A stretch of 64,000 nucleotides of DNA. It comes from an uncultured Pontibacter sp. (GTDB lineage: Bacteria > Bacteroidota > Bacteroidia > Cytophagales > Hymenobacteraceae). Position 1 is the first letter of the stretch, and each line of letters starts with the position of its first letter. Location of the stretch: positions 1 to 64,000 of the forward strand of contig NZ_CANLZM010000003.1 in assembly GCF_947495565.1 (NCBI RefSeq). Direction: 5' to 3'. This document shows positions 1 through 64,000 of this stretch, piece by piece. The position numbers and the translations under genes are program-made. The notes beneath the pieces are model-generated. The model searched no databases. It was not told the DNA's origin and saw only the letters and a program-made list of their open reading frames with translations.

Positions 1-87
1 CAGCAGAACGGGGGAGGCATAGGCCGTAGCAGGTGTACACCGCAATGGGAGCCCTGCTCGCAGCGTGCAGCTGGACCCTGTAAACAA

Positions 88-121
88 GCAAAGGCCGCAC
101 CCGATCAGGTGCGGCCTTTGC
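88..121. terminator. Intrinsic terminator, 14-bp perfect stem
   Basis: The arms at 88-101 and 108-121 are perfect complements around a 6-base loop. The hairpin lies 26 bases past the stop of the minus-strand M16-like gene and is followed on that strand by a T-rich stretch. Bases 1-87 hold no frame that I can assign to a gene. Confidence 0.8.
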
Positions 122-147
122 TGTTAGTAGAGATATGAGCTAATCTG

Positions 148-1434
148 TTACTCTTTTCTACCTGCTACAGTAGTATATAAGTCATCTGGCTGTAAATACT
201 TGTTCGCTAAATCCTGTAGCTCTGGAGCAGTTACGGTACGTACTGTTGTAACGTAATTGTTATAATGCTCTGGAGTTAATTTGTGTAGCGTGATACGCTT
301 ATACCTGTCGCATTGATCAAATATGGTAGATATATCGTTGAGGAATTTACCTAACATATAGTTCTTAACTGTTTCCAACTCCTCTTCCGGAACTTGCTCT
401 TGCTGCAGCAACTTTATCTCTTTTAGAACTTCTTCAATTGTGTTATCAGTAACAGCGTAATTAACATCAGTGCCTATATAAAAGATGCTGTCTTGTTCTT
501 TAGGAGATACCACAGAATGTATACCGTAAGTATAACCTTTGTCTTCACGGATATTGCGCATCAACCTAGAGCCAAAGTATCCACCGAAGATTTCATTTAA
601 GACAAGTAGCTTATGGTAATCTGCATGATCAATTTTAGGGAAACGCTTACCTATTCTGATAGATGATTGAAGGCTATCAGCCACCGATACCAACTTAAAC
701 TTATCTTTAGCAGAAGAAACCTCTTCTAAATTAGTAGTGGCTGATGCGGCGGATGGTTGAAGCTGTAGGCTGGAAATCTCGTTTTCGAGTTGCAACTGCA
801 GTACGTCATCAATTGCACCACAGGCAAATACTTCCAGTTCCTGTGTCACGAATCTTTTGCGATAGAATGCCTCTACTTCTTCTTTTGTGATTGCTTCTAA
901 AATTCCCTCATCAAATCCAAAAGTATAAGGATAGCTACTGCCGTACACTTGTTGGGTAAAAGCATGAGTGGCCAAATAATTGTTTTTCTGGCGCTGTACC
1001 TTTAGCGACTGAGAAGTACGCTGCTTGAGCAGGTTAAATTCTTCTTCCGGAAATGCAGGATTTTGAAGTACATCCAATACAAGCGCAAGTAAATCTGAAG
1101 TATACTTTGCCAGGCAGTAAAGCGTGAATTCTGAACGGTCATAACCGTGGTTGTTCTCCAAGGAGGCGCCATAAAATCCTACCTTATCCGCAATTTGCTT
1201 GGCTGTGTGATTTATGGATCCTTCCAGAAGCATTTTAGCTGCTAAATCTGAAGTGCCTTTTTTTTCTTCGTACCACTTACCGGCTTTAAAAACAAAATCC
1301 AGCCTGACAACAGGCTGGGTTTCGCTTTTTATTAAATGCAGTCGGGCTCCGTTGCTTAGGTGAGTTACCTCGGCTATCTGGATGCTGACGGCATCTATTT
1401 CATATGTTTCAGGAGCTTTTGATCTATCAAGCAT
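148..1434 (-). CDS. M16 family peptidase-like protein lacking the zinc site
   Basis: A 428-residue protein with the two-domain layout of an M16 (pitrilysin/insulinase) half. Active M16 enzymes carry HXXEH near residue 60. Here the aligned stretch reads DLAAK (about residues 64-68), so both histidines and the glutamate are lost. The C-terminal half keeps the family's R...GYTYG pattern (about residue 300), which in heterodimeric M16 enzymes sits on the non-catalytic partner. I infer an inactive subunit that pairs with an active M16 encoded elsewhere. No signal peptide is seen, so it is probably cytoplasmic, or a longer N-terminus is missing. It lies 16 bases downstream of porV and is probably the last gene of the porU-porV transcription unit. 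Family assignment is firm; the role is unknown. Confidence 0.85.
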   Translation of the reverse strand: MLDRSKAPETYEIDAVSIQIAEVTHLSNGARLHLIKSETQPVVRLDFVFKAGKWYEEKKGTSDLAAKMLLEGSINHTAKQIADKVGFYGASLENNHGYDRSEFTLYCLAKYTSDLLALVLDVLQNPAFPEEEFNLLKQRTSQSLKVQRQKNNYLATHAFTQQVYGSSYPYTFGFDEGILEAITKEEVEAFYRKRFVTQELEVFACGAIDDVLQLQLENEISSLQLQPSAASATTNLEEVSSAKDKFKLVSVADSLQSSIRIGKRFPKIDHADYHKLLVLNEIFGGYFGSRLMRNIREDKGYTYGIHSVVSPKEQDSIFYIGTDVNYAVTDNTIEEVLKEIKLLQQEQVPEEELETVKNYMLGKFLNDISTIFDQCDRYKRITLHKLTPEHYNNYVTTVRTVTAPELQDLANKYLQPDDLYTTVAGRKE

Positions 1435-1450
1435 TCTTTAAATGTATTTA

Positions 1451-2584
1451 TTATTCCAAGTTAAGGGCAAGCGTAAAGCGCCAAGTATCGGCTAGCGGGT
1501 TGCCCTGATCATTCGGGATGAGGTATGCGGCATCTAGGCCAAACTTTTGATAGCGAATACCCAAACCAGCTGAGAAATATTTTCTTCCGCCTTTATCAGG
1601 GTGCTCGTAGAAGTAACCTACACGTGCCGCAAACAACTCATTATACCAGTACTCTACTCCTGTCGAAAGGTTTACCTCTTTCAGCTCTTCGCTGGCACCG
1701 CCTTCGGCATCTCCGAAAGATGAAAAAATACCACCAATTACACTTTGGTCTGTGTCGCCGCCCGGAGATGGCACCAGAAGCTTGTTGGCATCCAGTAAGA
1801 AGGTAAGAGAGTTGTAGGCATCCAAGTTATACTTTAGAGCTGTACCAAGTTTCAGGTTTGTAGGCAAGAAGCTCTTGTCTTCATCCTCAGAGTAAGCAAT
1901 TTTACCCCCGATGTTAGATATGTTTGCACCTAAAGCCAAGTTTAAGTTTTGGCTTAGATCTTTGTTATAGTATACACCTACATCAACAGCAGCTGTGTTA
2001 CCCGGCTGAGACTCTGTGTTGCTGCCGCTCACGTTAACGTCGCCGGCAAGGTTGGAGTGTATGAAACGCGCAGAAATACCCACGCTGAAATTCTCGCTCA
2101 GGGCCTGACCGTAAGAAACAGCCACTGCATACTCTTTCGGGTTATAGTTTTGAAGTGGGTTTTGCTGCGCATCTATAAACTGAATCTCACCTAAATCAAA
2201 GTACATGAGGGAAACAGAGATAGCAGAAGTCTCATTTAGCTTTTTATACCCTGACAGGTAATTAAGCGACATGTCGTCAACAATGTTACTCAGCCAAGGA
2301 GAGTATGAAAAAGAAACGCTTAAATCGTTCTGTACAAAACCAAGCTTAGCAGGGTTCCAGTAAGATGCGTTGGCATCGGGCGATGCAGCCACACCAGCAT
2401 CACCTAAAGCTGCTGCGCGCGAATCCGGGCCAACAGTAAGGATCGGAACCGCAGTGGTAACTGCGTTAAGATCAGAGCCTGTAGAAGTAGCAGGCGGTGG
2501 CGTCTGTTGTGCAAAAGCAGCTGGCGCTGAAATTAAGGCGAACGCTAAGGCGGCGGCCTTCAGTATCTTACTATTTTTCTGCAT
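1451..2584 (-). CDS. porV: Type IX secretion outer-membrane protein PorV (LptO)
   Basis: A 377-residue protein with a signal peptide ending near AFAQ (residue 25), followed by a FadL-like beta-barrel. The early segment VGPDSRAAALGDAGVA and the ANASYWNPAKLG turn are hallmarks of the PorV/PorQ family. From known T9SS biology, PorV picks up cargo carrying a C-terminal sorting domain from the SprA translocon and delivers it to the sortase PorU. The gene directly follows porU, the usual arrangement in this phylum, and a TAnnTTTG box 24 bases upstream of the ATG may give it its own promoter. Length and start (good signal peptide) fit the family. Confidence 0.93.
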   Translation of the reverse strand: MQKNSKILKAAALAFALISAPAAFAQQTPPPATSTGSDLNAVTTAVPILTVGPDSRAAALGDAGVAASPDANASYWNPAKLGFVQNDLSVSFSYSPWLSNIVDDMSLNYLSGYKKLNETSAISVSLMYFDLGEIQFIDAQQNPLQNYNPKEYAVAVSYGQALSENFSVGISARFIHSNLAGDVNVSGSNTESQPGNTAAVDVGVYYNKDLSQNLNLALGANISNIGGKIAYSEDEDKSFLPTNLKLGTALKYNLDAYNSLTFLLDANKLLVPSPGGDTDQSVIGGIFSSFGDAEGGASEELKEVNLSTGVEYWYNELFAARVGYFYEHPDKGGRKYFSAGLGIRYQKFGLDAAYLIPNDQGNPLADTWRFTLALNLE

Positions 2585-2607
2585 ATGAAGGGTATTGATA
2601 GCTATAT

Positions 2608-2615
2608 CAAATATA
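2608..2615 (-). promoter_or_regulatory. TAnnTTTG -7 box upstream of porV
   Basis: Reads TATATTTG on the minus strand, 23 bases before the porV ATG, and matches the Bacteroidota sigma-A -7 consensus. No good -33 TTTG is visible, so it may be an internal promoter or chance. Confidence 0.4.
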
Positions 2616-2634
2616 GAAAATATGTACTACTATT

Positions 2635-5600
2635 CTATTTTATAATTACAAGTTTCTGAAACTTGGTGGCTTTAGCGCCATCCACCAGCGACTGCACATT
2701 TACTCTATAAAGATAAACGCCACGTGCCAGCACATCATTGTGTTCATCCCGGCCATCCCACGATATTTCTGCCACACGCGTTCTGCTTCCATAAATCATG
2801 GTTTGCAAAGTTTTTACCAGCTTACCTGATATGTCTAAGATCTGCACTTGAATCTCAAGGTCTTCGCCGGCTCTGTTATGGTCAAAAAGAAATGTGGTTT
2901 CAGTTGAGAACGGGTTTGGGAAGTTTGCTACATGCTCTAACGCAATATCGACATCATTAGATACATAAAATTCTATATATGCCTCTGCTGAGTTATTGTG
3001 TGTATCCCAGGCCTTGAGGCGGAGAGTGTGAGGCCCAGGCTCCAAATCCTTTAAAGTATACTTTACCTCGCCTTCCTGATAACTGGTTGGTGCCGATGTA
3101 TAATAATCGTTTAGTACAACTAAGCTAGTCTGTTCCTCATCCAGCAAAGCTGTAATCTCGTGGCCAATACCTATACCTGCCGAGTTAATGCCATTCTCAT
3201 CAAAAAGCTTGGCCAGCAGAGTTGTGGTCTGGCCGGTTGTTCCTCCAGACACAAAAGAGTCATCATCCATATATAATTTAACAGATGGTGGTGTATTGTC
3301 GGTAGGTGCGTTTTTGGCTGTGCCTCCAATTACAACTTCCTGATTTGCTCCCATGGCGTCTTGGGTGTTGTTGCTGGCGTAGATGCTTATTTTGCCTTGG
3401 CCAAAAGGGTAAGCGATGTCCTTGGGCACCACAAAGCTCACCTCAAACAGCCCCTGTTGTACACTGGCTCTGCCATCGTAAAGTGTGTTTTCGCGCACCT
3501 GCACTGGCTGTTTGGGACTTTTTTCGTCGCCTTGGGTATAGAGCATTGTTGGCTTTTCATAGACTTTCAGGTGCAGCTCGCCGGAGAAGTTGCTGGCAAG
3601 GTTGCCCTCGGGTGTCTGCACCTGCCCCTGCAGCTTTATCTTGCTTAGGGCGCTGATTGTATCAAAAGGAGCCTGCTTCTCATTTATACTTGTAATAACA
3701 GTTTCCAGCTTAGGGTAGGCCAGTTGCATAGAAGGGTCGGAGAGGAGGGTGAAGTTACGGTTGTTCACGCCTTTAGAGCCGCTTACGTTATCTGTAATGC
3801 TGTTATTCTTGGTTAGCATCATCACATCGCCGAGGCGTGGCATACGGCCGTTTACAGGTGTAAAGGCTGTGCTAAAGAAATTCCGGTTAAGTATGCGGTT
3901 GCCATTAGAGTAAACAGGCCGGGTTGTGGTAAGCAGGCCAACAGCGCCTCCATACGTGTGCAGTAGCGCCTGCTCCGCTCCAGATGGTTTGCCTGGGTCA
4001 TCGTAGCGGCCAAACTCGCAGGTGGCGGTAAGCAGAAACGTCAGGTTATCCTTATTTTTCCAGCTGTTGATTTGGGGCAGCGTAAGCACCTGTTCAGATG
4101 CCCAGCTTACTTCGTTTCCGTGGCCGGTGTAGTTGGTGATAAGGGAGCCCTGCTCAATGGCTTTGTCTAAAGCTGCGGAAGCAGCAGGTACGCGCTGCCC
4201 GTTTGCCACTGCCTGCTGCTGATACAGGTCTATGTATACTTTGTTAGGGTTATACTTGGGGTGATTTTCTATCAGGTAATTGCTTAGGAATTCGGCATCG
4301 TTTTGGTGCTCGTTGTAATCGGCATCATCGGCAACAAACGTTACTCTGCTGCGCCAGCTGCCAAAGTGGCTCGGGCTATCATAGTTAATGATTTTATTGA
4401 CAAGAGTGGCTGCTTCAGTTGTAGTTGCTGCCGGAAGCCTGCCGATACCAATGTCCAGCAAGTGATCTCCTTGTACGTTCTCAGCCCATTCGCCTTCTTC
4501 TTCATCCAGAAAGCCATAATAATCTTCTGAGCTGTAGCTGGTAATCGGGTGCAGAGACTCACGCGACTCATAGACAGGTACAAAATTCGTGTTGCTGCGG
4601 ATGCGGTCTTTATAATCGTAGGAGGCATCGCCGAAAAGCAGCAGGTACATCACATCGCCACTGGATTTGCTGCTACGGCTGTAGAGCATGCGCATAAAAT
4701 CACGAATGGCTGTAACGTCTTGTGCGCCAGATGAAAACTCGTTGAATACCTGTTGGGTGGTAACTACCTGTACTTCCATGTTGCTGTGCTGCGCACGGTG
4801 GTTTGCCAACCTGTTTGCCTCCTGCAGAAAGGCCGGGTGTGTCACGATAACAAAATCGAGGGAGCCGCCTTGGTTGAGGCTGTGCAGGTTCTGGTTCTCT
4901 ACATGGCCAGCCGCAATGGGTTTTTGGCTGATGCTGCCGCTCTGGAACACAACAAACTCGCGCAGCTCCGCTGTAGCCGTGGTAAAACTCCCGTTGCTGT
5001 GCTGCTGCGCCACTGGCTGTGTTGGGTTGGTTACATCCCAAACAGTAGCGCTGGCAGGAGCGCCGGCAATCGTAAAGCTGCTAATTGGCTGGTTTATACT
5101 TTGGGTAGAGCGGAAGGAGGTTTGCTCGCCATAGAGCTTTAGCTTCCGCTGATAGTGCAGCTCCAGGTAATTCAGGTAGCCCATGGCTGTGGGGCTGCCG
5201 CCGGGGTTAAAATTAAGTGTAATGTTATACTCGCTGCTGTTGCCTAGCTGCTGCTGGTTTATAGTATAAGTTTTTGTGCTGTTTACCCCCCTCAGGTGAT
5301 ATTGATAATTAGGGTCCGGGTGATAGCCGCGCCCAGGGATATCTTGAGAGCCGAGTGTCTGGTTGTTAAGCTGAACTGTGAAACTGCTGCTGGATGGAGC
5401 GTTCGCCATCAAGGCCGCCTCCAGCTTTACCTCAGATCCTGCCACTATATCTGAAACAAGGAAATTAAAGCTACGCGATGTCTGGAGCGTGCTGAACTCC
5501 TCTCCGTACCACTCCCTGCCCGAAAACACCATGTTTTTCAGGTCCTTCTCATAGTATAGCCGCTCGTTATAGCTTGTTATAATTTGTCCGGTGCCTGCTG

Positions 5601-6105: not shown

Positions 6106-6128
6106 AGGCAAGTATAAAATAATGAAAA

Positions 6129-6162
6129 GCTGCCCACCATACTACAAGTATAGGCAGGCAGC
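6129..6162 (-). terminator. Terminator of the pssA-purS unit, or attenuator before porU
   Basis: GCTGCC (6129-6134) pairs with GGCAGC (6157-6162), and an inner arm is formed by a copy of the AAGTATA motif against ACTAC/ATACT. On the minus strand the hairpin is followed by TTTTCATTATTTT. It lies 51 bases past the purS stop but also downstream of a -7 box at 6177-6184, so it could act as an attenuator for porU. Confidence 0.65.
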
Positions 6163-6176
6163 ATTTTTATGCTTAA

Positions 6177-6184
6177 CAAAGATA
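6177..6184 (-). promoter_or_regulatory. TAnnTTTG -7 box upstream of porU
   Basis: Reads TATCTTTG on the minus strand, about 70 bases before the porU start. It is identical to the box in front of maeB. The -33 region is weak. Confidence 0.45.
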
Positions 6185-6213
6185 CGGCTAAAATATTGAA
6201 ATAGAGGTAGCTT

Positions 6214-6465
6214 TTATACTTGCTTCAGCTCAAAAGTATAAGACTCCATGATCAGGTTAGCCAACAGCTTGCTACAAGCCTTCTCTACCTTCTCACGCGC
6301 TATCTCCTCCGTCTCCGCCTCCAGGTTCAGGGTAATGTGTTTTCCGATACGCACATCGTCCACTTGGTCCAGGCCAAGGTGCTCCAGACCTAATAGTACG
6401 GCTTTGCCTTGTGGGTCAAGTAACTCAGGGCGGGGCATTACGTCAATTTCAGCAACAAATTTCAT
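6214..6465 (-). CDS. purS: Phosphoribosylformylglycinamidine synthase subunit PurS
   Basis: An 83-residue protein with the PurS pattern: an N-terminal strand ending in MPRPELLDPQGKAV, then GLDQVDDVRIGKHI, and the C-terminal LANLIMESYTFEL. PurS is the small bridging subunit of the three-part FGAM synthase (PurS, PurQ, PurL) in step four of purine synthesis. PurQ is encoded at 15.6-16.3 kb and PurL is not in the window. Its ATG overlaps the pssA stop by four bases (6462-6465), so the two genes are translationally coupled. Length is normal for the family. Confidence 0.92.
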   Translation of the reverse strand: MKFVAEIDVMPRPELLDPQGKAVLLGLEHLGLDQVDDVRIGKHITLNLEAETEEIAREKVEKACSKLLANLIMESYTFELKQV

Positions 6466-7169: not shown

Positions 7170-7193
7170 GCAGGCGTGTGGCGGCAGAAATGG

Positions 7194-7913: not shown

Positions 7914-9002
7914 ATGAAATACGATTTTATAGTAGTAGGGCACGGCCTGGCTGGCGCTATTCTAAGCTATACTTTACGCAAGCAGGGCCGCCGCGTGCTG
8001 GTAATAGACGAGCCTCGGGCAAGCGCCGCCTCACGCGTGGCAGCCGGTTTACTGAACCCTGTGGCGGGCAAGCGCTTTGCCAAATCCTGGCTGGCCGATA
8101 CGTTTATACCTGCCGCCGATGCCTTTTACGATGAGTTGGAGGTGCACTTTGGGCGTCAGTTGTTCATCCATAAACCTATCTATAAGATCTTTTCTTCCAT
8201 AGAAGAGCAAAATACCTGGATGGCTAAGAGTGCCGATTCCAGCTGGGGAGACTATATTCTGGACACGCATACCCAAAGTATACACCAGCCGGATATCGAC
8301 GACCCTTACGGCGGAATCATGATTGGGCGGGGCGGGTACCTGCAGGTAGCCGAAATGCTGGACCTGCTGACGCAGGAGCTGCTGGAGCAAAAAATGATGC
8401 TGCCGGAGCGGTTTGATGTGGAGCAGCTGCAACTAACGGAGGGCGGTGTGCGCTATAAGGACGCAGAAGCTGCGCATCTTATTTTCTGCGAAGGGTTTCA
8501 GGTGGTGAATAACCCATACTTTAAGTGGTTGCCGATACAGCCCACCAAAGGCGAGGTGCTGGAAGTGCAGACGGAGAATTACGACCCGGAATGCATCTAT
8601 AACAAAGCTGTTTACGTTGTTCCGGTAGGAGATGGGCGTTTTAAGATTGGGGCTACCTATAACTGGCGCCAACCCGACGAAGAGCCTACGCCTCAGGGCC
8701 AGGAAGAACTCGCAGAGCGCTTCGGGCAGATTACCACACAGCCGTTTCATGTAACAGGGCACTGGGCAGGTATAAGGCCCGCCGTGCGTGACCGACGCCC
8801 GCTGGCTGGCACGCACCCGCAGTTTGCGCAGTTAAGCGTGTTTAATGGCATGGGTTCAAAAGGCGTTTTAATGGCTCCTTACCTGGCTCAGCGCTTTGCC
8901 GCCGCACTTGCCGGTACAGAAGAGGTAATGCCGGAGATACACATTTTAAGATATTTATCGTTATATTACGACTACATAAATCAACAAAACCAGCAACTCT
9001 AA
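7914..9002 (+). CDS. FAD-dependent oxidoreductase (DAO/glycine-oxidase type)
   Basis: A 362-residue protein starting with a Rossmann dinucleotide fold, VVGHGLAGAI (G8, G10, G13). The C-terminal GIRPAVRDRRPLAGTHP segment is typical of D-amino-acid-oxidase-like and MnmC-type FAD domains. A conserved GLLNPVAGKRF loop near residue 50 matches a Bacteroidota subgroup. It is expected to oxidise an amine or amino acid; the substrate is unknown. A TAACTTG box six bases before the ATG resembles a degenerate -7 element. Only four bases separate it from the next gene, so they are probably co-transcribed. Confidence 0.82.
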   Translation: MKYDFIVVGHGLAGAILSYTLRKQGRRVLVIDEPRASAASRVAAGLLNPVAGKRFAKSWLADTFIPAADAFYDELEVHFGRQLFIHKPIYKIFSSIEEQNTWMAKSADSSWGDYILDTHTQSIHQPDIDDPYGGIMIGRGGYLQVAEMLDLLTQELLEQKMMLPERFDVEQLQLTEGGVRYKDAEAAHLIFCEGFQVVNNPYFKWLPIQPTKGEVLEVQTENYDPECIYNKAVYVVPVGDGRFKIGATYNWRQPDEEPTPQGQEELAERFGQITTQPFHVTGHWAGIRPAVRDRRPLAGTHPQFAQLSVFNGMGSKGVLMAPYLAQRFAAALAGTEEVMPEIHILRYLSLYYDYINQQNQQL

Positions 9003-12231: not shown

Positions 12232-13383
12232 ATGAACCGCAAAGCCAAACGCTTTGGTCTGGGCACTTTGCTGTTGCTGGGCCTACTGGCAGCCTGGATA
12301 CACATGGCCGACAAGAATTATGTGTACAAGGCCATTGTGTACAATTTTGCCGATATCGATGACCATACTATTTTCGAGCAGCGCGAGATAGACGCACCGG
12401 TTACAGCTCAGCCTTGGCCGCTGGCGCAGAAGTATAACCGGGTGCAGATGCCGCAGGAAATGGAACAACTGCATCAGCAACTGGAATCAGTAGCTTTTCT
12501 GGTAGTAAAAGACGACTCTATACTTTACGAGCAGTACTGGGATGGTTATTCGGATGAATCGCTGAGTAATTCTTTTTCCATGGCCAAGAGCATTGTAAGT
12601 ATGCTGATAGGTGTGGCTATAAAAGAAGGCAAGATTGAAAGTGTAGAGCAGCCGGTAGGAGATTTTCTTCCTGATTTCAAAAAGGGCGATAAGGCAAAAA
12701 TCAAGCTAAAGCACCTGCTCTGGATGAGCTCTGGCCTGAACTGGGACGAATCTTACAGCAACCCGCTCTCCATGACAACCGAAGCTTATTATGGCTCTGA
12801 CTTAAGAAAAATTATTAAAAGGCTGGATGCTGTAAAGGAGCCGGGGAAGCAGTGGACCTACAAAAGCGGAGATACGCAAGTGCTGGCCTTTGTGCTGCAA
12901 GAGGCGACAGGCCAAAGCCTGAGCAAGTATGCCGAGGAAAAACTCTGGAAGCCGATGGGAGCCGCTCAGGATGCAGAATGGAGCCTGGACCAACCCGATG
13001 GCATGGAAAAAGCTTACTGCTGCTTCTTCTCCAATGCCCGCGATTTTGCCCGGTTAGGAAAGCTATACTTGCACAACGGCATCTGGAACGGCGATACTCT
13101 GGTGCCGCCTGCTTATGTGCAAGCGTCTCTCACACCCAATGGTTTAACCAAAGCCTCTGATGGCGAGCAAGTGGACTTCTACGGATACCAATGGTGGCTG
13201 ATGCCAAAGTATAAAGGGCAGGAGATTTTTTACGCTCGAGGTATACTTGGGCAGTACATTATTGTAATACCAGAAAAGAACATCGTAATTGTGCGGCTCG
13301 GCAAGCAACGCGGCGAGCGTATTGGGGAGCACCCAAGCGAGGTGATGGCTATGATTGATGCCGTTAACAAAATGGTGAAATAG
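12232..13383 (+). CDS. Serine hydrolase, class C beta-lactamase family
   Basis: A 383-residue protein with one N-terminal membrane anchor or signal segment (residues 8-23). The catalytic SxxK is S116-M-A-K119, and a YKS motif (TYKSGDTQ) stands in for YxN. The family (COG1680) covers D-alanine peptidases, esterases and amide hydrolases; the name does not imply drug resistance. The periplasmic domain is complete, with the usual WYQWWLMP region near residue 320. It follows the outer-membrane protein gene by 15 bases and is last in that plus-strand run, before a strong terminator. Confidence 0.85.
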   Translation: MNRKAKRFGLGTLLLLGLLAAWIHMADKNYVYKAIVYNFADIDDHTIFEQREIDAPVTAQPWPLAQKYNRVQMPQEMEQLHQQLESVAFLVVKDDSILYEQYWDGYSDESLSNSFSMAKSIVSMLIGVAIKEGKIESVEQPVGDFLPDFKKGDKAKIKLKHLLWMSSGLNWDESYSNPLSMTTEAYYGSDLRKIIKRLDAVKEPGKQWTYKSGDTQVLAFVLQEATGQSLSKYAEEKLWKPMGAAQDAEWSLDQPDGMEKAYCCFFSNARDFARLGKLYLHNGIWNGDTLVPPAYVQASLTPNGLTKASDGEQVDFYGYQWWLMPKYKGQEIFYARGILGQYIIVIPEKNIVIVRLGKQRGERIGEHPSEVMAMIDAVNKMVK

Positions 13384-15036: not shown

Positions 15037-15518
15037 TTTAAAAGAAGATAAATTTTAGATAAAGCAGACACAACACTTTCATGAAAATGCATTTCTCAGC
15101 ATCAATATCCTCTCGCCCGGCTGCACCATTGACCTATGGCTGTAGCTTTGGCGGGTATAACACTTCGCCCGCTTCTGCATACATAAGCAGCGGCAGCAGA
15201 AAGGTTATATGTGTCTGCAACAAAGCGAGCGCCTGCTGTAAAAGTGGCTTTCGCTTTTGACTTAAAGTATACTAATAAGCATTGGTTCTAGCTGCGGGGC
15301 AGAAAGTATAAGTATAAACCTGCAGGGCAGGAGGCTACAATGTGGCTCAAGCCGATAGTAACTTGCCCGTTATCGGCTTCAGGGTGGAGTAAGTGACAGA
15401 AATGGTGTAGCTTTTCTCATTGCGGGTGCAAAGGTAAAGTTTTTATTTTAAAAAGAACAGCTGGCCACACTCCTGTAGCCTCTGCCGGTTTTATAAGCGG
15501 CTAGAGACGCAAAAAAAC
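15037..15518. other. Gene-free interval upstream of sulP
   Basis: No convincing coding frame. It holds three AAGTATA copies (two adjacent in 15301-15320) and one 9-bp inverted repeat, AAGCCGATA/TATCGGCTT, at 15349-15357 and 15371-15379 with no T-tract, which may be a leader or operator hairpin for sulP. A -7 box could not be recognised. Confidence 0.5.
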
Positions 15519-16417: not shown

Positions 16418-17299
16418 ATGTTGCAGTCTATGACAGGCTTTGGCAGTGCCCGCCTCGATGCCGACCAGTATAGTATCTCCGTAGAAATCCGATCGCTTAA
16501 CTCCAAGAGCATGGACCTGAGCGTGCGCACCCCAAAAGTACTTTCTGATAAAGAGTACGAGATCCGGAACATGGTGCAAAAGGTACTGGTGCGCGGTAAA
16601 GTGAGCGTTAACGTGGAGTTCTCAAAGAACAAAACGCAGAAGGCGCGCAATACTGTGAACAAAGACCTCTTAAAGGCATACTACACGGACCTGAGCGAGG
16701 TGGCCGAACAACTGGGAGCCGACAAAGGAGAACTGTTCAGGCTGGCGCTGCACATGCCAGAGGTGTTGCAGCAGGAGGAGCAGGACGGAGAAACCGCTGA
16801 GGCAGAATGGAACCTGGTGCAGCCGCTTATGCAGGAGGCGCTACAAAGTATAAATACCTTCAGGGCCGATGAGGGCAAGGCGCTTACAGCCGAAATTATG
16901 TCGTACATAGACCGTATCCGTATCCTACTGGCCGAGATAGAAAAGCACGACCCGGTTCGGATGGAGCATATCCGTACGCGCATCCGTGGCCATTTGGCTG
17001 AAATATCAACTTCTGAGCACTTCGATAAAAACAGATTTGAGCAGGAGATGATCTACTATATGGAGAAGCTTGATATTGCGGAGGAAAAAGTACGCTTGGT
17101 AAACCACCTGCACTATTTTACAGAGACTGTGTACCTGCCTGAGCCAACAGGCAAAAAGCTCGGCTTCATATCGCAGGAGATTGGCCGCGAGATCAACACC
17201 ATCGGCTCAAAAGCCAACGATGCCACCATACAGCACCATGTGGTAGAGATGAAAGAGGAACTGGAGAAGATTAAAGAGCAGATCAATAATATTCTGTAA
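16418..17299 (+). CDS. yicC: YicC/YloC family endoribonuclease
   Basis: A 293-residue protein that starts with the family hallmark MLQSMTGFG and ends with the conserved C-terminal block, including EIGREINTIGSKAND and a final KEELEKIKEQINNIL helix. YicC-type proteins are conserved RNA endonucleases implicated in small-RNA turnover in other bacteria. The two Pfam parts (YicC_N and DUF1732) are both intact and length is normal. In many genomes the gene precedes gmk; here a strong terminator follows instead. Confidence 0.92.
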   Translation: MLQSMTGFGSARLDADQYSISVEIRSLNSKSMDLSVRTPKVLSDKEYEIRNMVQKVLVRGKVSVNVEFSKNKTQKARNTVNKDLLKAYYTDLSEVAEQLGADKGELFRLALHMPEVLQQEEQDGETAEAEWNLVQPLMQEALQSINTFRADEGKALTAEIMSYIDRIRILLAEIEKHDPVRMEHIRTRIRGHLAEISTSEHFDKNRFEQEMIYYMEKLDIAEEKVRLVNHLHYFTETVYLPEPTGKKLGFISQEIGREINTIGSKANDATIQHHVVEMKEELEKIKEQINNIL

Positions 17300-50667: not shown

Positions 50668-50900
50668 TCACTTATACTTTAGTTATACTTGTGTTAGCAG
50701 CTTCTTCCTTATCCCAACGTACCGTGAAGCTTTGTAAAAGTTAACAAGATTGTGATGAAGTGCAGCTGAAGTATAGTCTGTTTTGAACAGGTTCGTTCAG
50801 CTTAGCCATTTATACTTTAGCTGATGTTTGTACTTGTTAGCAGGTGCTAAGTTTACACAGCTTAAGCTGAAACAGTTGGCAAGCCACTTCACTTCATTAT
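50668..50900. other. Gene-free gap with four AAGTATA/TATACTT copies
   Basis: No coding frame is seen between two strong terminators. The heptamer occurs at 50673, 50684, 50769 and 50811, one of its densest clusters here. Confidence 0.7.
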
Positions 50901-50950
50901 AACAAAAAATCCCCCTGCGGCTTTTAAGAGCTACAGGGGGATTTTTTGTT
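50901..50950 (-). terminator. Terminator after infB
   Basis: AACAAAAAATCCCCCTG (50901-50917) pairs with 50934-50950. The A/T closing run gives a T-tract on either strand. It ends the rimP-nusA-infB unit. Confidence 0.85.
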
Positions 50951-50967
50951 ATATGCTACGCTTTATA

Positions 50968-53900
50968 CTACAGCGTACGCTTCACTTCTTTCTCTACATA
51001 AGCTTCGATCACGTCACCTTCCTGGATATCATTGTATCCTCTCAAGCTGATACCGCACTCGTAGCCTTGTCTTACTTCCGCTACATCGTCTTTGAAGCGC
51101 TTCAGGGCAAGTATCTCGCCGTCATGCACTACGATGCCGTCGCGTACTAAGCGTACTTTAGAGTTACGCTGTATCGTGCCATCTGTCACCATACAGCCGG
51201 CTATGGTACCCACCTTTGTGATCTTGAACACCTCACGTACTTCTACGTTACCGGTAATCTCCTCTTTCAGGGTAGGGGCAAGCATGCCTTCCATGGCGTC
51301 TTTCACCTCATTAATGGCGTCGTAGATGATAGAGTACAGGCGCACATCAATTTGCTCCTGCTCTGCCAGCCTTCGTGCGTTTACAGACGGACGAACCTGG
51401 AAGCCGATGATAATGGCATCAGATGCTGAGGCAAGCAACACGTCAGACTCTGAGATTGCGCCCACGCCTTTGTTGATGATGCTCACCTGAACCTCAGGAG
51501 TAGACAGCTTCAATAGGGAGTCGGAAAGTGCCTCTACGGAACCGTCCACGTCACCTTTTACAATCACGTTCAGCTCCTTAAATGTACCGATTGCCAAACG
51601 ACGACCGATCTCATCAAGTGTGATATGCTTACGTGTGCGCAGGCTTTGCTCACGCTGCAGTTGCGATCTGTTAGAAGCAATTTCTCTGGCCTCACGCTCA
51701 GAATCCATTACCAGGAACTTATCACCTGCCTGTGGCGCTCCATCCAGACCTAGTAACTGTACCGGTGTAGAAGGGCCAGCCTCTTTCATTTTCTTGCCAC
51801 GGTGATCTGTCATGGCTTTTACTCTACCGTAGTGAGAGCCTGCCAATACAACATCACCTATTTTAAGGTTACCGGTCTGTACAAGTACAGTGGCAACATA
51901 TCCGCGCCCTTTATCTAGGGAAGCTTCGATTACAGTACCGATAGCCTGGCGCTCTGGGTTAGCTTTCAGCTCAAGAAGTTCTGCCTCAAGCAATACTTTC
52001 TCCAATAGGTCAGGTATACCTTGTCCTGTTTTGGCTGATACTTCCTGGGCTTGGTATTTACCACCCCATTCCTCAACCAGAACGTTCATTTGGGCAAGCT
52101 CCTCACGAACTTTGTCCGGGTTAGCACCTGGCTTGTCAACTTTGTTCAGAGCAATGATGATTGGAGCGCCCGCAGCCTGTGCGTGGTTGATGGCCTCTTT
52201 CGTCTGTGGCATCACAGAGTCGTCAGCGGCTACCACAATAATAACAACGTCTGTTACCTTGGCACCACGGGCACGCATTGCCGTAAAGGCTTCGTGACCA
52301 GGTGTATCCAGGAAGGTAATGGTACGGCCGCTCTCCGTCTGTACCTTATAGGCACCGATGTGCTGCGTAATACCACCGGCCTCACCGGCTGTAACGTTGG
52401 CGCTACGGATGTAGTCAAGTAGGGAAGTTTTACCGTGGTCAACGTGGCCCATGATTGTTACAACCGGGGCACGCTCTTTCAGGTCTTCCTCGTTCTCCTC
52501 TACAATATCCTCTAAGCCTTGTTCTTCCTCTGTCGTGATGAACTCTACATTATAACCAAATTCATCAGCAATGATGGTGATAGCTTCGGCGTCGAGACGC
52601 TGGTTGATGGATACGAACATACCAAGCTGCATGCAGACCTTGATTACGTCGTTCACGCTTACATCCATAAGAGCAGCCAAGTCGTTAGCCGAAACGAATT
52701 CGGTTACGCGCAGGGTCTTAGACTCTGCCTGCTCCTGCATGCGGCGCTCTTCGGTTGCATCGGCAATAGCCGAACGCTTCTCACGGCGATACTTGGCACG
52801 GTTACCTCCGCCTCCTTTGCCTCCGCTAAGCTTAGCAAGGGTAGCTTTAATCTGCTCCTGAATTTCCTTATCCGTAACCTCCGTTTTCTCAGCTCTGGCT
52901 GGTCTGCCTTTGCCGCCGGTTGGTTTTGGAGGGCGCTGCTGGCCACCGCCTGGGCGTCCGCCATGCTGTTGGGCAGGCTGTATCGGGCGCTGGTTGCCTT
53001 GGCCTGGACCTTGTCCGGCACCCTGCTGCTGGCCACCTTCGGTAGCCACCATAATGCGCTTGCGTTTTTTCTTCTTGCCTTTGCGATCATCGGATGAGGC
53101 AACAGGCTTTGCGCCTTTTCTGCGCGACTCTACTGGCAGTTCAATTTTGCCAAGTACAGTAAGACCTTTTAGCTGGTCTGCTTTTGCTGTAATCTTTTCT
53201 ATGTCTTCTTTTGTTTCTGTGCTTTTGTTTGCCTCTGCAGGTGCGGCCGGTTGCTGTGGCTCCTTCTCTGCTGCGGGCTCTTTTGGTGCTTGTTCAGTTG
53301 GCTTCTCAGCGGCTGGTTTAGCAGGGGCCTCCGGCTGCTGCTTTGGCGCTTCCGGCTTCTGAGGCGTGGCAGGCGCTTCAGGGGCTTTAGCGACAGGTGC
53401 TGCTGCAGGCGTTTCCGGCTGTTTAGCTGGTTCCTCGGCTTTTGGTGCTTCCGGAGCTGGCTTCGCTGGTTCTTCGGCTTTAGGGGGCTCCGGAGCAGGT
53501 GCAGGAGCTGGTTTTGCTTCTACTTTTGGTGCTTCCGGCTGTTTAGCTGGTTCCTCGGCTTTTGGTGCTTCAGCTGGCTTTACTGGCTCTGGCTCTTCGG
53601 CTTTAGGGGCCTCTGGAGCAGGTGCCGGGGCTGGTGTTGGTTGCTTAGCAACAGGTCTGCCTTTTGCATCCAGCTCTATTTTGCCTAGCACTTTAATGCC
53701 TGGCAGCTTAGATGCAGGTTCTGCAGCAGGCTCCTCTTTCTTAGGCGCGGGCGCTTCAGGCTTTTTAGCGTTCTTAATAAGAATCTCTTCCTCGGGCTCA
53801 CTCGCTTTTTTCGGCTCGTGTGCAGGCTCCGACTCAATTACCTGGTTGCTCTGCGGCTTCTTACCAATGTTAATTTCATCTGCCTCCTGCTTTTCTTGCA

Positions 53901-54072
53901 TAGACGCAGCGAATTCTTTAGCCAGCATACCGAACTGCTCTGCCGTGATTTTGGTGGTTGGTTTATTTTCCACCTCAAACCCTTTAGCAGAGAGGTAATC
54001 CACAATAGTAGATGTACCAATGTTTAAAGTAGTCGCAACCTGTTTAAGCCTCCTTGTTTTTTCTTCTGCCAT
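50968..54072 (-). CDS. infB: Translation initiation factor IF-2
   Basis: A 1034-residue GTPase. The N-terminal helix domain ([20 protein letters not shown]) is followed by a long Pro/Ala/Glu/Lys-rich linker (about 100-320) with near-identical [11 protein letters not shown] units, then a Gly/Gln-rich patch. The GTPase core has GHVDHGKTS (about residue 540), DTPGHE and NKVD, then domains II-IV. It places initiator tRNA on the small ribosomal subunit. The AAGTATA motif is absent from the coding region, unlike most neighbours. A good -33/-7 promoter lies in the 123-base gap behind nusA. Confidence 0.96.
53413..53571 (-). repeat. Imperfect direct repeat inside the infB linker
   Basis: The 39-base unit at 53413-53451 recurs at 53533-53571, a 120-base (40-codon) step that keeps frame and codes for the EEPAKQPE segments. 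It is length-variable linker DNA, prone to slippage. Confidence 0.7.
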
Positions 54073-54164
54073 TTTTGTTCTAATATGCTGTCTTATTTGT
54101 TCTGTATTAAAGTATAGCTGCCTTACCTAGAAGGTATAAGTTGTGCCCCACGTCTAAGTTTTCT

Positions 54165-55930: not shown

Positions 55931-55953
55931 ATCAAATGGTTAAGAAATAAAGA

Positions 55954-55973: not shown

Positions 55974-55996
55974 CAGCTCCTTGGAAATATTTACTG

Positions 55997-56031: not shown

Positions 56032-56261
56032 TTGTGCAGCGTTGCTCTGTATTAAATATTTACCAGCATACTTGTAAAACAAATTTATGGGTAGAAGTAT
56101 GTTTATACCGGAGGTGAGTGAGCCCGAGACTTGTAGCTTAACACCCGGAGCTATATTTTAGTTCGCCTATAATCTGAATTATAGTTTAGCGCGGCAGAAC
56201 CATAAAGCACCGCGCAAATATAATATCTGAGGCTGCTTGAAATAGATAGGTGCAGAATTCG

Positions 56262-56269
56262 TAAGTTTG
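56262..56269 (+). promoter_or_regulatory. TAnnTTTG -7 box abutting the EEP gene start
   Basis: Reads TAAGTTTG and ends five bases before the GTG at 56275. Either the mRNA is nearly leaderless or translation starts further in. A TTG at 56237-56239 may be the -33 box (22-base spacer). Confidence 0.45.
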
Positions 56270-56274
56270 CTTTC

Positions 56275-57511: not shown

Positions 57512-59008
57512 ATGCAACAGAAACTAAACCTGTATAATACGCTAACGCGAAAGAAAGAAGAGTTTGAGCCGCTGCATGCCCCTTTTGTAGGGATGTATGT
57601 CTGCGGGCCAACCGTATACGGTGAGCCGCACCTGGGCCATGCCCGCAGCGCAGTTACTTTTGATGTGCTGTACCGCTACCTGAAGTACCAGGGCTACAAA
57701 GTGCGCTATGTGCGCAACATTACCGACGTGGGCCACCTGGAGAACGATGCGGATGAAGGCGAGGACAAGATCCAGAAAAAGGCCAAGCTGGAGCATCTGG
57801 AGCCGATGGAGGTAGTAAACCACTATACCAACATCTACCACCAGGAAATGGACAAGCTGAATGTGCGGCAACCGGATATTGAGCCACGCGCATCAGGGCA
57901 TATAATGGAGCAGGTGCAGATGATACAGGAGATACTGGACAACGGTTTTGCCTACGAGGTAAACGGCTCGGTATACTTTGATGTGCAGACCTACAACAAG
58001 CAGCATAAGTACGGCAAGCTCTCCGGCCGCATTATAGACGATCTCCTGAACAACACCCGTACTTTAGACGGGCAGGAGGAGAAGCGCTCGCCGCTGGATT
58101 TCGCCCTCTGGAAAAAAGCCTCCCCGACACATATCATGCGCTGGCCATCGCCGTGGAGCGAAGGTTTTCCGGGTTGGCACCTGGAGTGCTCGGCCATGAG
58201 CCGCAAGTACTTAGGCACAACTTTTGATATTCATGGAGGCGGGTTGGATCTGATGTTTCCGCACCACGAATGTGAGATTGCGCAGAGCCAAGCCAGTTGC
58301 AACCATACCGATGCTGCCAAGTACTGGGTTCACAACAACATGATCACAGTGAATGGGCAGAAGATGGGGAAATCCTTAGGTAACTTTATAAACCTTAGCG
58401 AGCTTTTCAGCGGAAACCACGAGATGCTGGAGCAGGCTTATACCCCAATGACCATCCGCTTTTTTATACTGCAGGCGCACTACCGCAGCACCCTGGATTT
58501 TAGCAACGAAGCACTGCAAGCTGCCCGAAAAGGGTATACTAAGCTGATGAACGGCATGCGTGTGCTGAAGAAGCTGAAGTATACTGAAGAAGCCGTAGAG
58601 AACGCACCGGATACAAAGCTGAACGAGGAGTTGCAGAAGCTTACGCAAGATTGCTTCCGTGGCCTGAACGATGACCTGAACACAGCCAAAACCATAGCTT
58701 CACTGTTTAACCTGCTCAAGAAGATCAACAGTTTATACTTGGGGCAGATTAAGATGGAGGAGTTATCGAGAGGTACATTTGACCTGATGCGCGATACTTA
58801 CCAAGAACTGGTAGGAGATGTGCTGGGGCTGAAAGAAGAGACGGTCGGCAACATGCAAGACGTGCTGGACCTGGTACTCACCTTTTATAAAGAGGCCAAG
58901 GAGCAGAAAGCCTACGATAAGGTAGACGCCATACGGGTAGAGCTGAAGCGGCAGGGGATCGTTATCAAAGACATGAAAACCGGAATAGACTGGGCTTATG
59001 AAGAATAA
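57512..59008 (+). CDS. cysS: Cysteinyl-tRNA synthetase
   Basis: A 498-residue class I synthetase. It has [18 protein letters not shown], with the zinc Cys and the HIGH-type PHLGH, then WHLECSAMS and [11 protein letters not shown] for the other zinc ligands. The KMSKS loop reads KMGKSLGN, a common variant. The C-terminal half is helical for tRNA recognition. It charges tRNA-Cys. Length is normal. The stop overlaps the next gene by 11 bases, so the two are co-transcribed and translationally linked. Confidence 0.96.
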
Positions 59009-60011
59009 AATGAACATACTGGCGCTGCTGCTTTGTGGATCTCTTTTCTTTGCCAGCTGCGACTCAGCTGAGAAAAGCGGCGGCAACCAGGTGGCTGAAG
59101 TGGAAGAGCCAGGCAATACTGTGGAGGCACCTGCTTTTAACCCAGACTCTGCTTACGCCTTTGTGGAAAAGCAGGTGGCTTTCGGGCCGCGCGTACCTAA
59201 TACGGCCGCGCATTTCCAGACCGGCGAGTGGATTGTGGCTAAGCTGAAGGAGTATGGCGCGCAGGTGCAGGAGCAGGAGTTTCAGGCGAAGGCTTATGAC
59301 GGCACCATGCTGAACCTGCGCAACGTGATTGCCTCGTACAACCCTGGCGCTGCCAACCGTGTGCTGCTGGCGGCCCACTGGGACACACGCCCGCTCGCGG
59401 ATAAGGATGAGGAGAATCCTAAAGAAGCCATAGACGGAGCCAACGACGGAGCTAGTGGCGTAGGAGTGCTGCTGGAAATAGCCCGAGCCATACATGAGGC
59501 GCAGCAGAAACCGGATGTTGGCGTGGATCTTATCTTTTTTGACGGAGAGGATTACGGCCAGCCGGACGATAGCCCTCTGCCGCAGGTGCAGGATTCCTGG
59601 TGCTTAGGCTCCCAGTACTGGAGCAACAACAAGCATACACCTAACTATCGCGCCAATTACGGTATACTGCTGGACATGGTGGGAGCCGAGAACGCCCGCT
59701 TTGCCCGCGAAGGTTACTCCAGGCAATACGCCAAAGAAGTTGTAGACAAAGTATGGAAGGCCGGCAACAGCATTGGCTACTCGGATTACTTTAAGTATAA
59801 AAACGCACCTGCCATCACTGACGACCATTATTACGTCAACACCCAGGGCAATATCCGGATGATTGACATTATAGAGCTGGATACCAACGCTGGCAGCGGC
59901 GATATTTTTGGGCCTTACCACCACCGCCACACCGACAACATGGACATTATCAGCAAAAACACGCTGAAGGCTGTAGGGCAAACGGTGCTGCATGTGATCT
60001 ATAACGAATAG
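58998..60011 (+). CDS. M28 family lipoprotein, glutaminyl-peptide cyclotransferase-like
   Basis: A 337-residue protein with a lipobox FFASC (about Cys19). The M28 fold motifs are [25 protein letters not shown] (Asp), FFDGEDYGQ (Glu) and ITDDHYYVN (His), the three-ligand pattern of bacterial glutaminyl cyclases. These turn an N-terminal glutamine into pyroglutamate, known to protect many periplasmic and T9SS-exported proteins in Bacteroidota. The role is inferred from the motif pattern. An in-frame ATG at 59010 is an alternative start. It overlaps cysS by 11 bases. Confidence 0.85.
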
Positions 60012-62247: not shown

Positions 62248-62347
62248 GCCAGCTAAGAGTTGAGAGTGATGAGTTGAGAAGTTGGCAGGAGCCAAAATAT
62301 ACTTTCAGCTCATACTTATACTTGCATTTACTTTCAGAGAAATCAAC

Positions 62348-63562
62348 ATGAAAAAAAATATACAACTGGCTGCGGCCATACTTGGCGGAGTAGCCCTACT
62401 TAGTGTGCAGCAGGCTGTGGCGCAGATTGCCGTAAAAGGCGAAACCGTTTATACCATGGCGGGCACACCCATTAAAAACGGAGTGGTGCTGCTAAAAGAT
62501 GGCAAAATAGAAGCCGTAGGAGCTAACCTGCAGGTGCCGCAGAACTATAAAGTATACACAGCCAAAGTGGTAACACCGGGGCTGGTGGATGCCCACACTT
62601 CGGTGGGCCTTGCCGGGATCTACAACATCCCGGCAGACCAGCAGCAACTGGAGAAAACCGCGCCCATACAACCGGAGCTTCGCGCCATAGACTCTTATAA
62701 CCCAAAAGAGGAGCTGATAGAGTGGGTGCGCAGCTATGGCGTTACCACCATTAACACCGGCCACGGCCCCGGCGCGCTCATCAGCGGGCAAACCATGACG
62801 ATCAAGACCTCACCGGATGGATTTTCCTCGCTGATCGATACGACAAATATGATTGCTTTTACCCTGGGCAGCAGCGTAGGCGAAAACTACAACTCACCTA
62901 AAACATCAGCCAAGGGGATGGCCATGCTGCGTACCGAGCTGCAGGCGGCGCAGGCTTACAACAAAAAGATGGGCAACTCGGATGCCAGCAAGCGCCCCGA
63001 CCGCAACCTGAAAATGGATTACCTCTCGGACCTGCTGAACCGCAAGCATAAAACGCTGATCACGGCCAACCAGTCGCAGGACATTATGGCGGCGCTGCGC
63101 CTGGCCAAGGAGTTTAACCTAGATCTGGTACTGGATGGGGGCGCTGAAGCTTACCTGCTGATAGATGAGTTGAAGGCTGCCAAGGTGCCGGTTATACTTC
63201 ACCCCACCATGGCGCGCTCTTTCGGCGATAGCAAGAACATGTCGTTTGAGACAGCCGGAATGCTGGCTAAGGCTGGCGTGCCGGTGGCAATCCAAAGCGG
63301 GTTTGAGCAGTACGTGCCGCGTGCCCGCGTTATACTTTTTGAGGCGAGCGTTGCCGTGGCCAACGGCATGAGCACTGATCAGGCGCTGGCCTCCATCACC
63401 TCCACACCGGCAAGTATACTTGGTTTAGAGGATCGTGTAGGTTCCCTGGAAAAAGGTAAGGATGCTGACCTGGTGCTGTTTGACGGCGACCCGTTTGAGT
63501 ATACTTCCCATGTATGTACGGTGATGATAAACGGTAAAGTGGTTAGCGAAGAATGTAAATAG
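62348..63562 (+). CDS. Amidohydrolase-like protein lacking metal ligands (copy 2)
   Basis: About 404 residues from the ATG at 62348. A TTG further up (62282) would add 22 residues but spoil the signal peptide MKKNIQLAAAILGG...VAQ. It aligns with copy 1 throughout, but each metal ligand is replaced: HSH becomes HTS (H83, S85), FHTHRYDD becomes TANQSQDI, LHHVSEAW becomes LDGGAEAY and FHTDDG becomes IQSGFE. It is a pseudoenzyme by this test, perhaps a partner subunit for copy 1. The fold is otherwise whole, so it is not a decayed gene. Confidence 0.85.
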   Translation: MKKNIQLAAAILGGVALLSVQQAVAQIAVKGETVYTMAGTPIKNGVVLLKDGKIEAVGANLQVPQNYKVYTAKVVTPGLVDAHTSVGLAGIYNIPADQQQLEKTAPIQPELRAIDSYNPKEELIEWVRSYGVTTINTGHGPGALISGQTMTIKTSPDGFSSLIDTTNMIAFTLGSSVGENYNSPKTSAKGMAMLRTELQAAQAYNKKMGNSDASKRPDRNLKMDYLSDLLNRKHKTLITANQSQDIMAALRLAKEFNLDLVLDGGAEAYLLIDELKAAKVPVILHPTMARSFGDSKNMSFETAGMLAKAGVPVAIQSGFEQYVPRARVILFEASVAVANGMSTDQALASITSTPASILGLEDRVGSLEKGKDADLVLFDGDPFEYTSHVCTVMINGKVVSEECK

Positions 63563-63736
63563 AAAACTGCCGGTATTTTATACTTCCTTGGAGGTGTGAA
63601 ATACCGGCAAACTTTGGAGGAAAACCTTTTGTAGCTGCTGCAGGCACAACTTTTTGAGCTAATTAAAGTATAGTTCTGGGCAAGCCTACGAGCTTGCTCC
63701 ACCAACAATGGTGCCTGCCATGCTATAGAAAACACC

Positions 63737-63764
63737 GCGGTAAAGCCTGAAAAGGCTTTGCCGC
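63737..63764 (+). terminator. Weak terminator after the amidohydrolase pair
   Basis: GCGG.AAAGCC (63737-63747) pairs with GGCTTT.CCGC (63754-63764) with one mismatch; followed by TTTGG. It lies about 175 bases past the stop of copy 2. Confidence 0.5.
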
Positions 63765-63849
63765 TTTGGTAGATTATACTAATCTGGATTTAGACAGTAT
63801 TTATACTTAGTTACTTCATTTTACCTTCTACCCAAAACTATCAAAACAA

Positions 63850-64000
63850 ATGAGCTACGATAACATCGTTTCGCTACTTGGTTCTGATGCTGAAAGCCTC
63901 CTGCAGCACAAAAGCCAGACTATCCCTAAAGAACAACTGCATGTACCCGGTCCTGATTTCGTGGACAGAATCTTTGCCCAGTCTAACCGTTCGCCGCAGG
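63850..64000 (+). CDS. fbaB: Class I fructose-bisphosphate aldolase, N-terminus only
   Basis: The first 50 residues, cut by the window end. The translation opens MSYDNIVSLLGSDAESLL and continues QTIPKEQLHVPGPDFVDRIF, the typical N-terminus of class I (DhnA/FbaB-type) aldolases in Bacteroidota. The full enzyme splits fructose-1,6-bisphosphate into two triose phosphates through a Schiff-base lysine, which lies outside the window. The ATG at 63850 follows CAAAACAA. Upstream is a 287-base gap with two AAGTATA copies (63666, 63800 region). Confidence 0.75.
   Translation, partial: MSYDNIVSLLGSDAESLLQHKSQTIPKEQLHVPGPDFVDRIFAQSNRSPQ

Follow-up and report, generated by a model that had tools for sequence, protein, structure and literature searches.

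AAGTATA and related heptamers in Pontibacter: a dense, dialect-forming word that may be a DNA-uptake sequence

We examined a stretch of 64,000 nucleotides (the window) from an uncultured Pontibacter sp. (contig NZ_CANLZM010000003.1, assembly GCF_947495565.1), in which the heptamer AAGTATA, or its complement TATACTT, is scattered over both strands, within genes and between them. Whichever explanation is preferred, the effect itself is genuine and very strong. That the word is dense, is kept at orthologous places, was partly rewritten when a dialect changed, was lost in some lineages and is scarce on second contigs points to a sequence-specific reader of chromosomal DNA. The heptamer may be what a DNA-binding protein recognises when it favours DNA from the chromosome of its own species, most likely a DNA-uptake sequence for natural transformation free of a type IV pilus, a proposal that we hold with a confidence evenly divided for and against.

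An exact recount gave 137 sites in the window (66 AAGTATA and 71 TATACTT), where base composition predicts 8.8, a second-order Markov model 12.8, and a third-order Markov model with the motif masked 11.05; the first-pass annotation had estimated about 130 loci at about 15 times the chance level, in good agreement with these figures. Each of the five coordinates it had cited proved to be a true site to within one base (7968-, 12519-, 16846+, 9161- and 13207+), and the excess over the third-order model was found again in 224 kb of the genome containing the window and in stretches of relatives. The claim that codon choice alone would not be enough was likewise borne out: the 38 open reading frames (ORFs) of the window contain 96 sites, compared with 13.4 +/- 3.4 (maximum 20) in 200 synonymous-codon shuffles that kept both protein and codons, and all six combinations of frame and strand are populated, if unevenly (sense 21/5/17; antisense 14/14/25). 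Site density was 4.27/kb in non-coding and 1.73/kb in coding DNA of the window. The sites (exact matches, given as start and strand) and their arrangements of interest are as follows.

1-10 kb: 528+ 921+ 1098+ 1101- 1828- 3054+ 3057- 3685- 4235- 4251- 5095- 5893- 6110+ 6146+ 6215- 6234+ 7211- 7299- 7473- 7697- 7968- 8276+ 9161-
10-20 kb: 10580- 11631- 12430+ 12519- 13064- 13207+ 13242- 13419+ 13472- 13489- 15265+ 15304+ 15310+ 15585- 16306- 16846+ 17305+ 17686+ 19434+ 19798-
20-30 kb: 20034- 20669+ 20734+ 20850+ 21508+ 22126- 23037- 23101- 23364+ 23662+ 23965- 24195+ 24198- 24299+ 24805+ 24844+ 24947+ 25386+ 25447+ 25853- 26216- 27533+ 28414+ 28580-
30-40 kb: 30652+ 31148- 31629+ 31775- 33301- 33353+ 34611+ 34947+ 36176- 36419+ 36687- 37095+ 37160- 37302+ 37756+ 37790- 38818- 39818-
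40-50 kb: 40151+ 40972- 41831+ 42340- 42618+ 43770+ 44065+ 44167+ 44640+ 45731- 45775+ 45785- 46411+ 46414- 46525+ 47571+ 47777- 49192+ 49252- 49660- 49733+
50-64 kb: 50196- 50673- 50684- 50769+ 50811- 54110+ 54847+ 55010- 55047- 56776+ 57184- 57497- 57972- 58577+ 58734- 59793+ 60082+ 60268+ 60271- 60528- 62298- 62317- 62550+ 63193- 63331- 63412+ 63415- 63500- 63579- 63666+ 63802-
7968..7974, minus strand: intragenic example, within the FAD-dependent oxidoreductase gene 7914-9002
12519..12525, minus strand: intragenic example, within the beta-lactamase-fold protein gene 12232-13383
16846..16852, plus strand: example within the ORF 16418-17299
15304..15316, plus strand: tandem overlap of two sites, AAGTATAAGTATA, intergenic (between ORFs)
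1098..1107, both strands: palindromic overlap of two sites, AAGTATACTT; the same arrangement at 3054, 24195, 46411, 60268 and 63412
50818..54109, no strand: longest stretch without sites, spanning the IF-2 gene (50968-54072)

The whole genome from which the window comes (4.52 Mb) has 3,975 + 4,120 = 8,095 sites, against 436 for the reversed word, which served as control when AAGTATA was counted in 79 whole genomes. No excess was seen in 30 genomes representing 29 other genera and 21 other families of the order (0.44 to 1.81 relative to the reversed control), AAGTATA alone being counted there. A search with cysteinyl-tRNA synthetase gave Pontibacter oryzae, flavimaris, aydingkolensis, virosus and fetidus as the best named relatives, and the best-matching genome (G023, in our numbering of genomes) was 83% identical across 9.8 kb of the window. 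AAGTATA totals in Pontibacter genomes ranged from 770 to 11,818, and are low in many of them because another, related word heads their list, as judged from orthologous 18-20 kb stretches of 49 relatives from which the top word of each species was found. Twelve species (G003, G005, G009, G010, G011, G015, G016, G017, G029, G040, G047 and G048) have 5,748-9,303 copies of AGGTATA in their whole genomes, the other 38 having 720-3,132. The third word, AACTATA, reaches 12,524-13,168 copies in the whole genomes of G018, G031, G038 and G044, 11,674 in G046, 8,118 in G027, 6,094 in G033 and 3,531 in G043, versus 532-1,969 in the other 42. G043 has mostly AAGTATA; G027, G033 and G046 are mixed, with 7,552, 9,116 and 5,110 copies of AAGTATA, respectively, and may be caught between dialects. 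Weaker and divergent words were found in 40 kb each of G042 (ATATATA/CTATATA) and G037 (GGGTATG/GGTATAG), and no clear word in 19-40 kb each of nine species (G002, G007, G024, G025, G026, G028, G034, G041 and G045). By our reading a dialect is therefore carried by 41 of 50 species, two of them weakly, and nine are without, G079 being counted as a carrier from 20 kb only.

Some of the non-carriers showed mild leftovers. AACTATA occurred 50 times against 15 expected (3.3-fold) when G002, G034 and G007 were pooled (loci L115, L205, L147, L208, L120 and L286), which may be what is left of a dialect since lost, and G007 has 2,905 copies of AAGTATA against 723 of the reversed word. A weak excess of GGTAGAG in non-carriers is partly a tandem repeat in G028, and a tandem 8-base repeat, GAGGTAGA, lies at L204:1549-1660 in a species without the motif, with scattered single copies nearby. 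Non-carrier genomes were larger, with a mean of 5.80 Mb against 4.63 Mb for carriers (p=1.9e-5, kinship ignored); this would fit the loss of transformation, but would fit other causes too.

The dialects, which have a core in common, follow phylogeny, as seen in a one-locus DNA tree built from IF-2, NusA and CysS. The 12 AGGTATA species form one clade in it, the AACTATA species lie close together with G043, the nine non-carriers fall into three groups, and AAGTATA is scattered over the remainder, which suggests that AAGTATA may be the ancestral word for most of the genus. When four genes of this locus were used for a protein tree of 40 genomes, it also united its nine AGGTATA species, and likewise the AACTATA species; however, it placed the AGGTATA clade elsewhere and did not recover the largest non-carrier group, and the deep branches are therefore unsure.

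We compared the retention of sites in 22 species comparisons with that of permuted heptamers, leaving aside any permutation that has a five-base piece in common with a dialect. For the eight comparisons below 90% identity, pooled in their first direction, the partner had the identical word at 132 of 192 motif sites, and for permuted heptamers it did so at 612 of 1,682 (p=1.1e-17, Fisher test); six reverse comparisons gave 95 of 142 against 483 of 1,296 (p=1.7e-11). The eight comparisons above 90% identity, some of which differed little (0.84 vs 0.79 for G013 to G039; 0.74 vs 0.72 for G038 to G031), were left out of the pool. The mixed pair G033/G046 keeps both of its words, at 17 of 20 and 15 of 27 sites. 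The first-pass annotation had proposed comparing density and positional conservation in relatives, and these counts show its sites held in place above the permuted level. When 10 of the 12 AGGTATA species were aligned with six AAGTATA species (G004, G006, G008, G019, G032 and G079), the species pairs not being independent, AGGTATA sites gave 769 cases, faced by AAGTATA 152 times, by AGGTATA 50 times and by ACGTATA 19 times; in the opposite direction AAGTATA sites faced AGGTATA in 152 of 674 and AAGTATA in 57. The switch to AGGTATA thus involved in-place recoding at about a fifth of the sites that could be aligned. Opposite six species without a motif, the commonest partner of AAGTATA was AAGTACA (41 of 321).

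All dialects have TAT as bases 4-6 and mostly A as base 7, and T follows base 7 at 4-5% of sites in the three main dialects. Since AAGTATG was itself present at 5.5-6.5 times expectation and T is rare at the next base, the unit is approximately AAGTATR followed by not-T. The other single mismatches of AAGTATA ranged from 0.65 to 3.5 times expectation, mostly above 1. The three main words are one or two bases apart and none is palindromic. Among close pairs the palindromic overlap was favoured (AACTATAGTT in 53 cases among 642 sites; AAGTATACTT in 26 among 1,603), opposed sites 3 bases apart being the commonest close pair in AAGTATA and AACTATA, and the tandem overlap in the same orientation, at spacing 6, was among the commonest spacings in AAGTATA and AGGTATA. 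These counts bear upon the idea that a mutational bias, a single-base repair bias (Vsr-like) or codon use produced the word, to which we give next to no credence. All that speaks for such a bias, beyond the excess as such, is that the AGGTATA clade has some depleted near-misses. The codon-preserving shuffles do not reproduce the excess; the conversion of one near-miss base could not yield it, the AAGTATA near-misses being mostly above expectation; and second contigs largely escape.

The last point comes from 213.8 kb of the second contigs of G021 (whole), G020 (80 of 204 kb) and G001 (60 of 116 kb), which are probably plasmids and which held 50 sites against 31 expected. The chromosomal sample of G021 held 648 sites against 38-55 expected. 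In G020 and G001, chromosome stretches of 20 kb held 20 and 28 against about 1 to 2. Every chromosome stretch that was sampled contained the word on both strands (20 in G021, nine in G031). Judged by GC skew, the leading strand carried 346 of 648 sites in G021 and 256 of 492 in G031, two of whose nine stretches are nearly without skew, and the pooled share (602 of 1,140) gave no significant strand bias on the chromosome (p=0.062). Non-coding DNA, separated from coding DNA by simple ORF prediction and lower in G+C (more A+T-rich), was 3-5 times richer in sites, with 3.99, 5.59 and 6.15/kb in the AAGTATA, AGGTATA and AACTATA samples against 1.25, 1.10 and 1.88/kb in coding DNA. This distribution, with little of the word on second contigs and with its conservation at orthologous positions, would also fit if selection kept the site for a chromosome-organising or other intracellular DNA-binding protein, acting in the nucleoid, in segregation or in the marking of self DNA for defence. 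We consider such a role unlikely: no candidate protein was identified, and an essential organiser would hardly be expected to have two dialects in one genome or to have lost its word in nine species.

A further explanation, modelled on the HIP1 sites of cyanobacteria, is that a DNA methyltransferase and methyl-directed repair create or keep the word. HIP1 and its alternates reach a density of about one site per kb, and genomes that have them also have the corresponding methyltransferases (PMC4390886). The Pontibacter word resembles HIP1 in being genome-wide at about one site per kb and in having alternates in some species, but differs in that HIP sites are palindromic and linked to methyltransferases, whereas the Pontibacter words are non-palindromic, and the main ones lie one or two bases apart. 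In favour of a methyltransferase, PF02384 matches, some of them weak, were found in 20 of 20 genomes tested, 14 carriers among them (G079 with only weak partial matches). PF07669 had matches in 14 of 16 carriers tested. PF01555, however, was found in 31 of 50 genomes, with 14 carriers lacking it, and three of these 14 (G022, G033 and G079) had no strong match in common across PF01555, PF02384 and PF07669 as judged by family and frame length: G079 has an Eco57I-type match (1162 aa) and weak ones, G022 only one PF02384 match (548 aa), and G033 only one strong PF02384 match (811 aa). Nor was any near-miss of AAGTATA a strongly depleted donor. From these three families (others such as PF02086 lying outside the search), a methyltransferase appears an unlikely cause, and we regard the HIP-like mechanism as a whole as very improbable.

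We weighed a Chi-like role similarly, in which the AddAB helicase-nuclease, on recognising the word, would change over from degrading DNA to recombination, and the dialect would follow AddB. Like Chi, the word is short, non-palindromic and lineage-specific, and an AddB-like protein (PF12705) was found in 50 of 50 genomes, with a length of about 910 aa in most of the 40 copies read; it scores below the NCBIfam curated cut-off for AddB, the search having covered AddB and not AddA, and a search of the Protein Data Bank with it gave no meaningful match (best E 0.66). Set against 13 AAGTATA genomes, four AACTATA genomes have 34 fixed AddB differences in common, and in a tree of 40 genomes the AddB of the AACTATA group lies on a long stem, which counts against uptake as well. 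In addition, the AddB of G043 is nearest that of G006 (0.079), though linked control proteins put G043 nearest the AACTATA genomes G027 and G044. G006 was not among the six nearest to G043 by linked housekeeping proteins (all within 17.6%), and the closeness of the two AddB copies (7.9% different; loci L265 on G043:C6 and L261 on G006:C2) is a probable gene replacement between species. ComEC was more divergent still than AddB in three species compared with 13 others. Most known Chi sites have a strong leading-strand orientation, unlike the shares given above, and the density of 1-3 per kb, at about 10- to 15-fold excess, is far above that of known Chi. The word is also absent from genomes with a normal AddB: among positions invariant in the 32 carriers read, R28 alone stands out, being altered in three of eight non-carriers whose AddB was read, and the copy of the non-carrier G024 differs by 11.2% from that of the window species. 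At the switch to AGGTATA there were only 4 fixed AddB differences. A Chi-like role with the AddB-like protein is thereby weakened, and we consider it distinctly unlikely.

Known uptake sequences provide the closer match, and their pattern fits better than that of the palindromic HIP sites. The DNA uptake sequences (DUS) of the Neisseriaceae, as set out in PMC3630211, comprise eight dialects with a conserved core and a phylogenetic distribution; some genomes are without them, one has two dialects in near-equal numbers, and the maximum density is 5,918 in 2.4 Mb. Pontibacter likewise has thousands of short non-palindromic copies, core-sharing dialects ordered by phylogeny, two-dialect genomes and genomes without the word. 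It differs in the length of the word (7-8 bp, DUS being 10-mers), in numbers (up to 13,168 copies per genome), in having no full type IV pilus ATPase match and in belonging to a different phylum. PMC1939737 further describes uptake sequences as non-palindromic words that are over-represented outside coding DNA, have no preferred orientation round the chromosome, grow in number by point mutation and are accompanied by enriched mismatched forms; PMC2346458 reports a terminal bias inside genes for the uptake signal sequences (USS) of the Pasteurellaceae. The Pontibacter word is like USS in its non-coding excess, its lack of chromosome orientation bias and its enriched single mismatches (less well in the AGGTATA clade), and unlike USS in having no terminal bias within genes. 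The first-pass annotation had named both uptake sequences and HIP1 as parallels and had left open which of them the word resembles in function; the former likeness is strengthened by the dialects (two of them in some single genomes), partial recoding, non-palindromic form, non-coding excess, enriched near-misses, lack of significant strand bias and low excess on second contigs, and the latter is weakened by the lack of a palindrome and of a strong match common to G022, G033 and G079 in the three methyltransferase families. Among the matches listed in the open-access literature we found no description of the heptamer, or of uptake sequences in Bacteroidota, subscription papers and bioRxiv preprints being mostly outside that search.

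Uptake is the best-supported guess, and may be correct about one time in two. The enrichment, the dialects and the partial recoding are established by counts; we infer that one protein reads the word, that its job would be uptake, and that drive, not selection, would maintain the word. Cells would preferentially bind and import free DNA with the word, which would recombine with the homologous chromosome region through ComEC and recombination proteins, so that point mutations which make or keep the word would spread by molecular drive within protein-coding limits. A shift in receptor specificity would lead to the gradual recoding in place of old sites to the new dialect, and species losing the system would let the word decay. 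As a still more specific proposal, to which we lean slightly less than halfway, Pontibacter, a genus in which no full type IV pilus ATPase match was seen, would have an uptake system of its own and mark its chromosomes with thousands of copies of a 7-8 bp word in three firm dialects and perhaps two more, read by a receptor whose specificity drifts and rewrites the sites, raising barriers to gene exchange between species.

Several results tell against uptake. No gene following the presence of the word was found, and no receptor. ComEC (PF03772) occurs in 50 of 50 genomes, including the nine non-carriers, and its presence was therefore rejected as the switch; an inspection by eye of the ComEC neighbourhood in 14 genomes (8 carriers, 6 non-carriers) identified no gene that tracks the word. 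Two carriers, G009 (G009:C76:160505) and G022 (G022:C1:2771217), have a ComEC with an internal stop, which could represent decay or an assembly error; the word count of G022 is fairly low (5,476 AAGTATA). The type IV pilus ATPase (PF00437), for which up to 31 candidates per genome were scored, had no full-length match among those listed for 50 genomes; the listed matches are partial, covering about 40-70 of 370 positions, and exceed the cut-off in 3 of the 50 genomes. Uptake by a type IV pilus was rejected on this basis, pilins not having been searched for, and a ComP-type receptor is therefore not expected. DUF5689, tried as a Riemerella-type receptor, was rejected since it does not track the word; it was found in 22 of 50 genomes in two settings, a short form in 12 genomes, all carriers, at SusCD loci with phosphoesterases (two loci annotated), and a long form in 10 genomes (5 carriers, 5 non-carriers) with lamin-tail and exonuclease-phosphatase domains (two copies annotated). 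The remaining points concern the word itself. The gene-end excess was absent in three dialects, AGGTATA being slightly low at ends (p=0.034). Sense and antisense counts in genes were 324/300 for AAGTATA, 119/98 for AGGTATA and 229/154 for AACTATA, and the orientation bias was significant for the last only. Of the 21 near-misses in the AGGTATA clade, 8 were below expectation (lowest 0.28), and recoding was weak for AACTATA, which faced AAGTATA in 23 of 579 cases. The low excess on second contigs may be due to their recent arrival. A pilus-free route is nevertheless plausible in this phylum, because Riemerella anatipestifer transforms with ComEC, DprA, ComF, RecA and unknown surface proteins, pilus homologues not having been detected in it (PMC8459023).

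Other features were noted alongside the word. The window had no tRNA or Rfam matches, and carries probable type IX secretion genes, namely a C25 peptidase (2635-6111), which we take to be PorU-like, and SprA (26303-33475). At two Bacteroidales loci, L033 and L069, which scored highest among other bacteroidote loci with strong 7-8-mers, 8-mers occurred 25 times against 0.7 expected and 17 times against 0.1, possibly as local repeats.

Two proteobacterial families are well known to mark their own DNA by sequence, and both take DNA up by means of pili. Should the word belong to AddAB instead, it would be the densest Chi-like site known to us. If the uptake proposal is true, Pontibacter would provide a third, independent case, in Bacteroidota, and with 41 of 50 species having a dialect, nine without and mixed genomes perhaps between dialects, the genus would allow dialect switching to be watched, drive to be tested against selection, and the receptor of a pilus-free system to be hunted.

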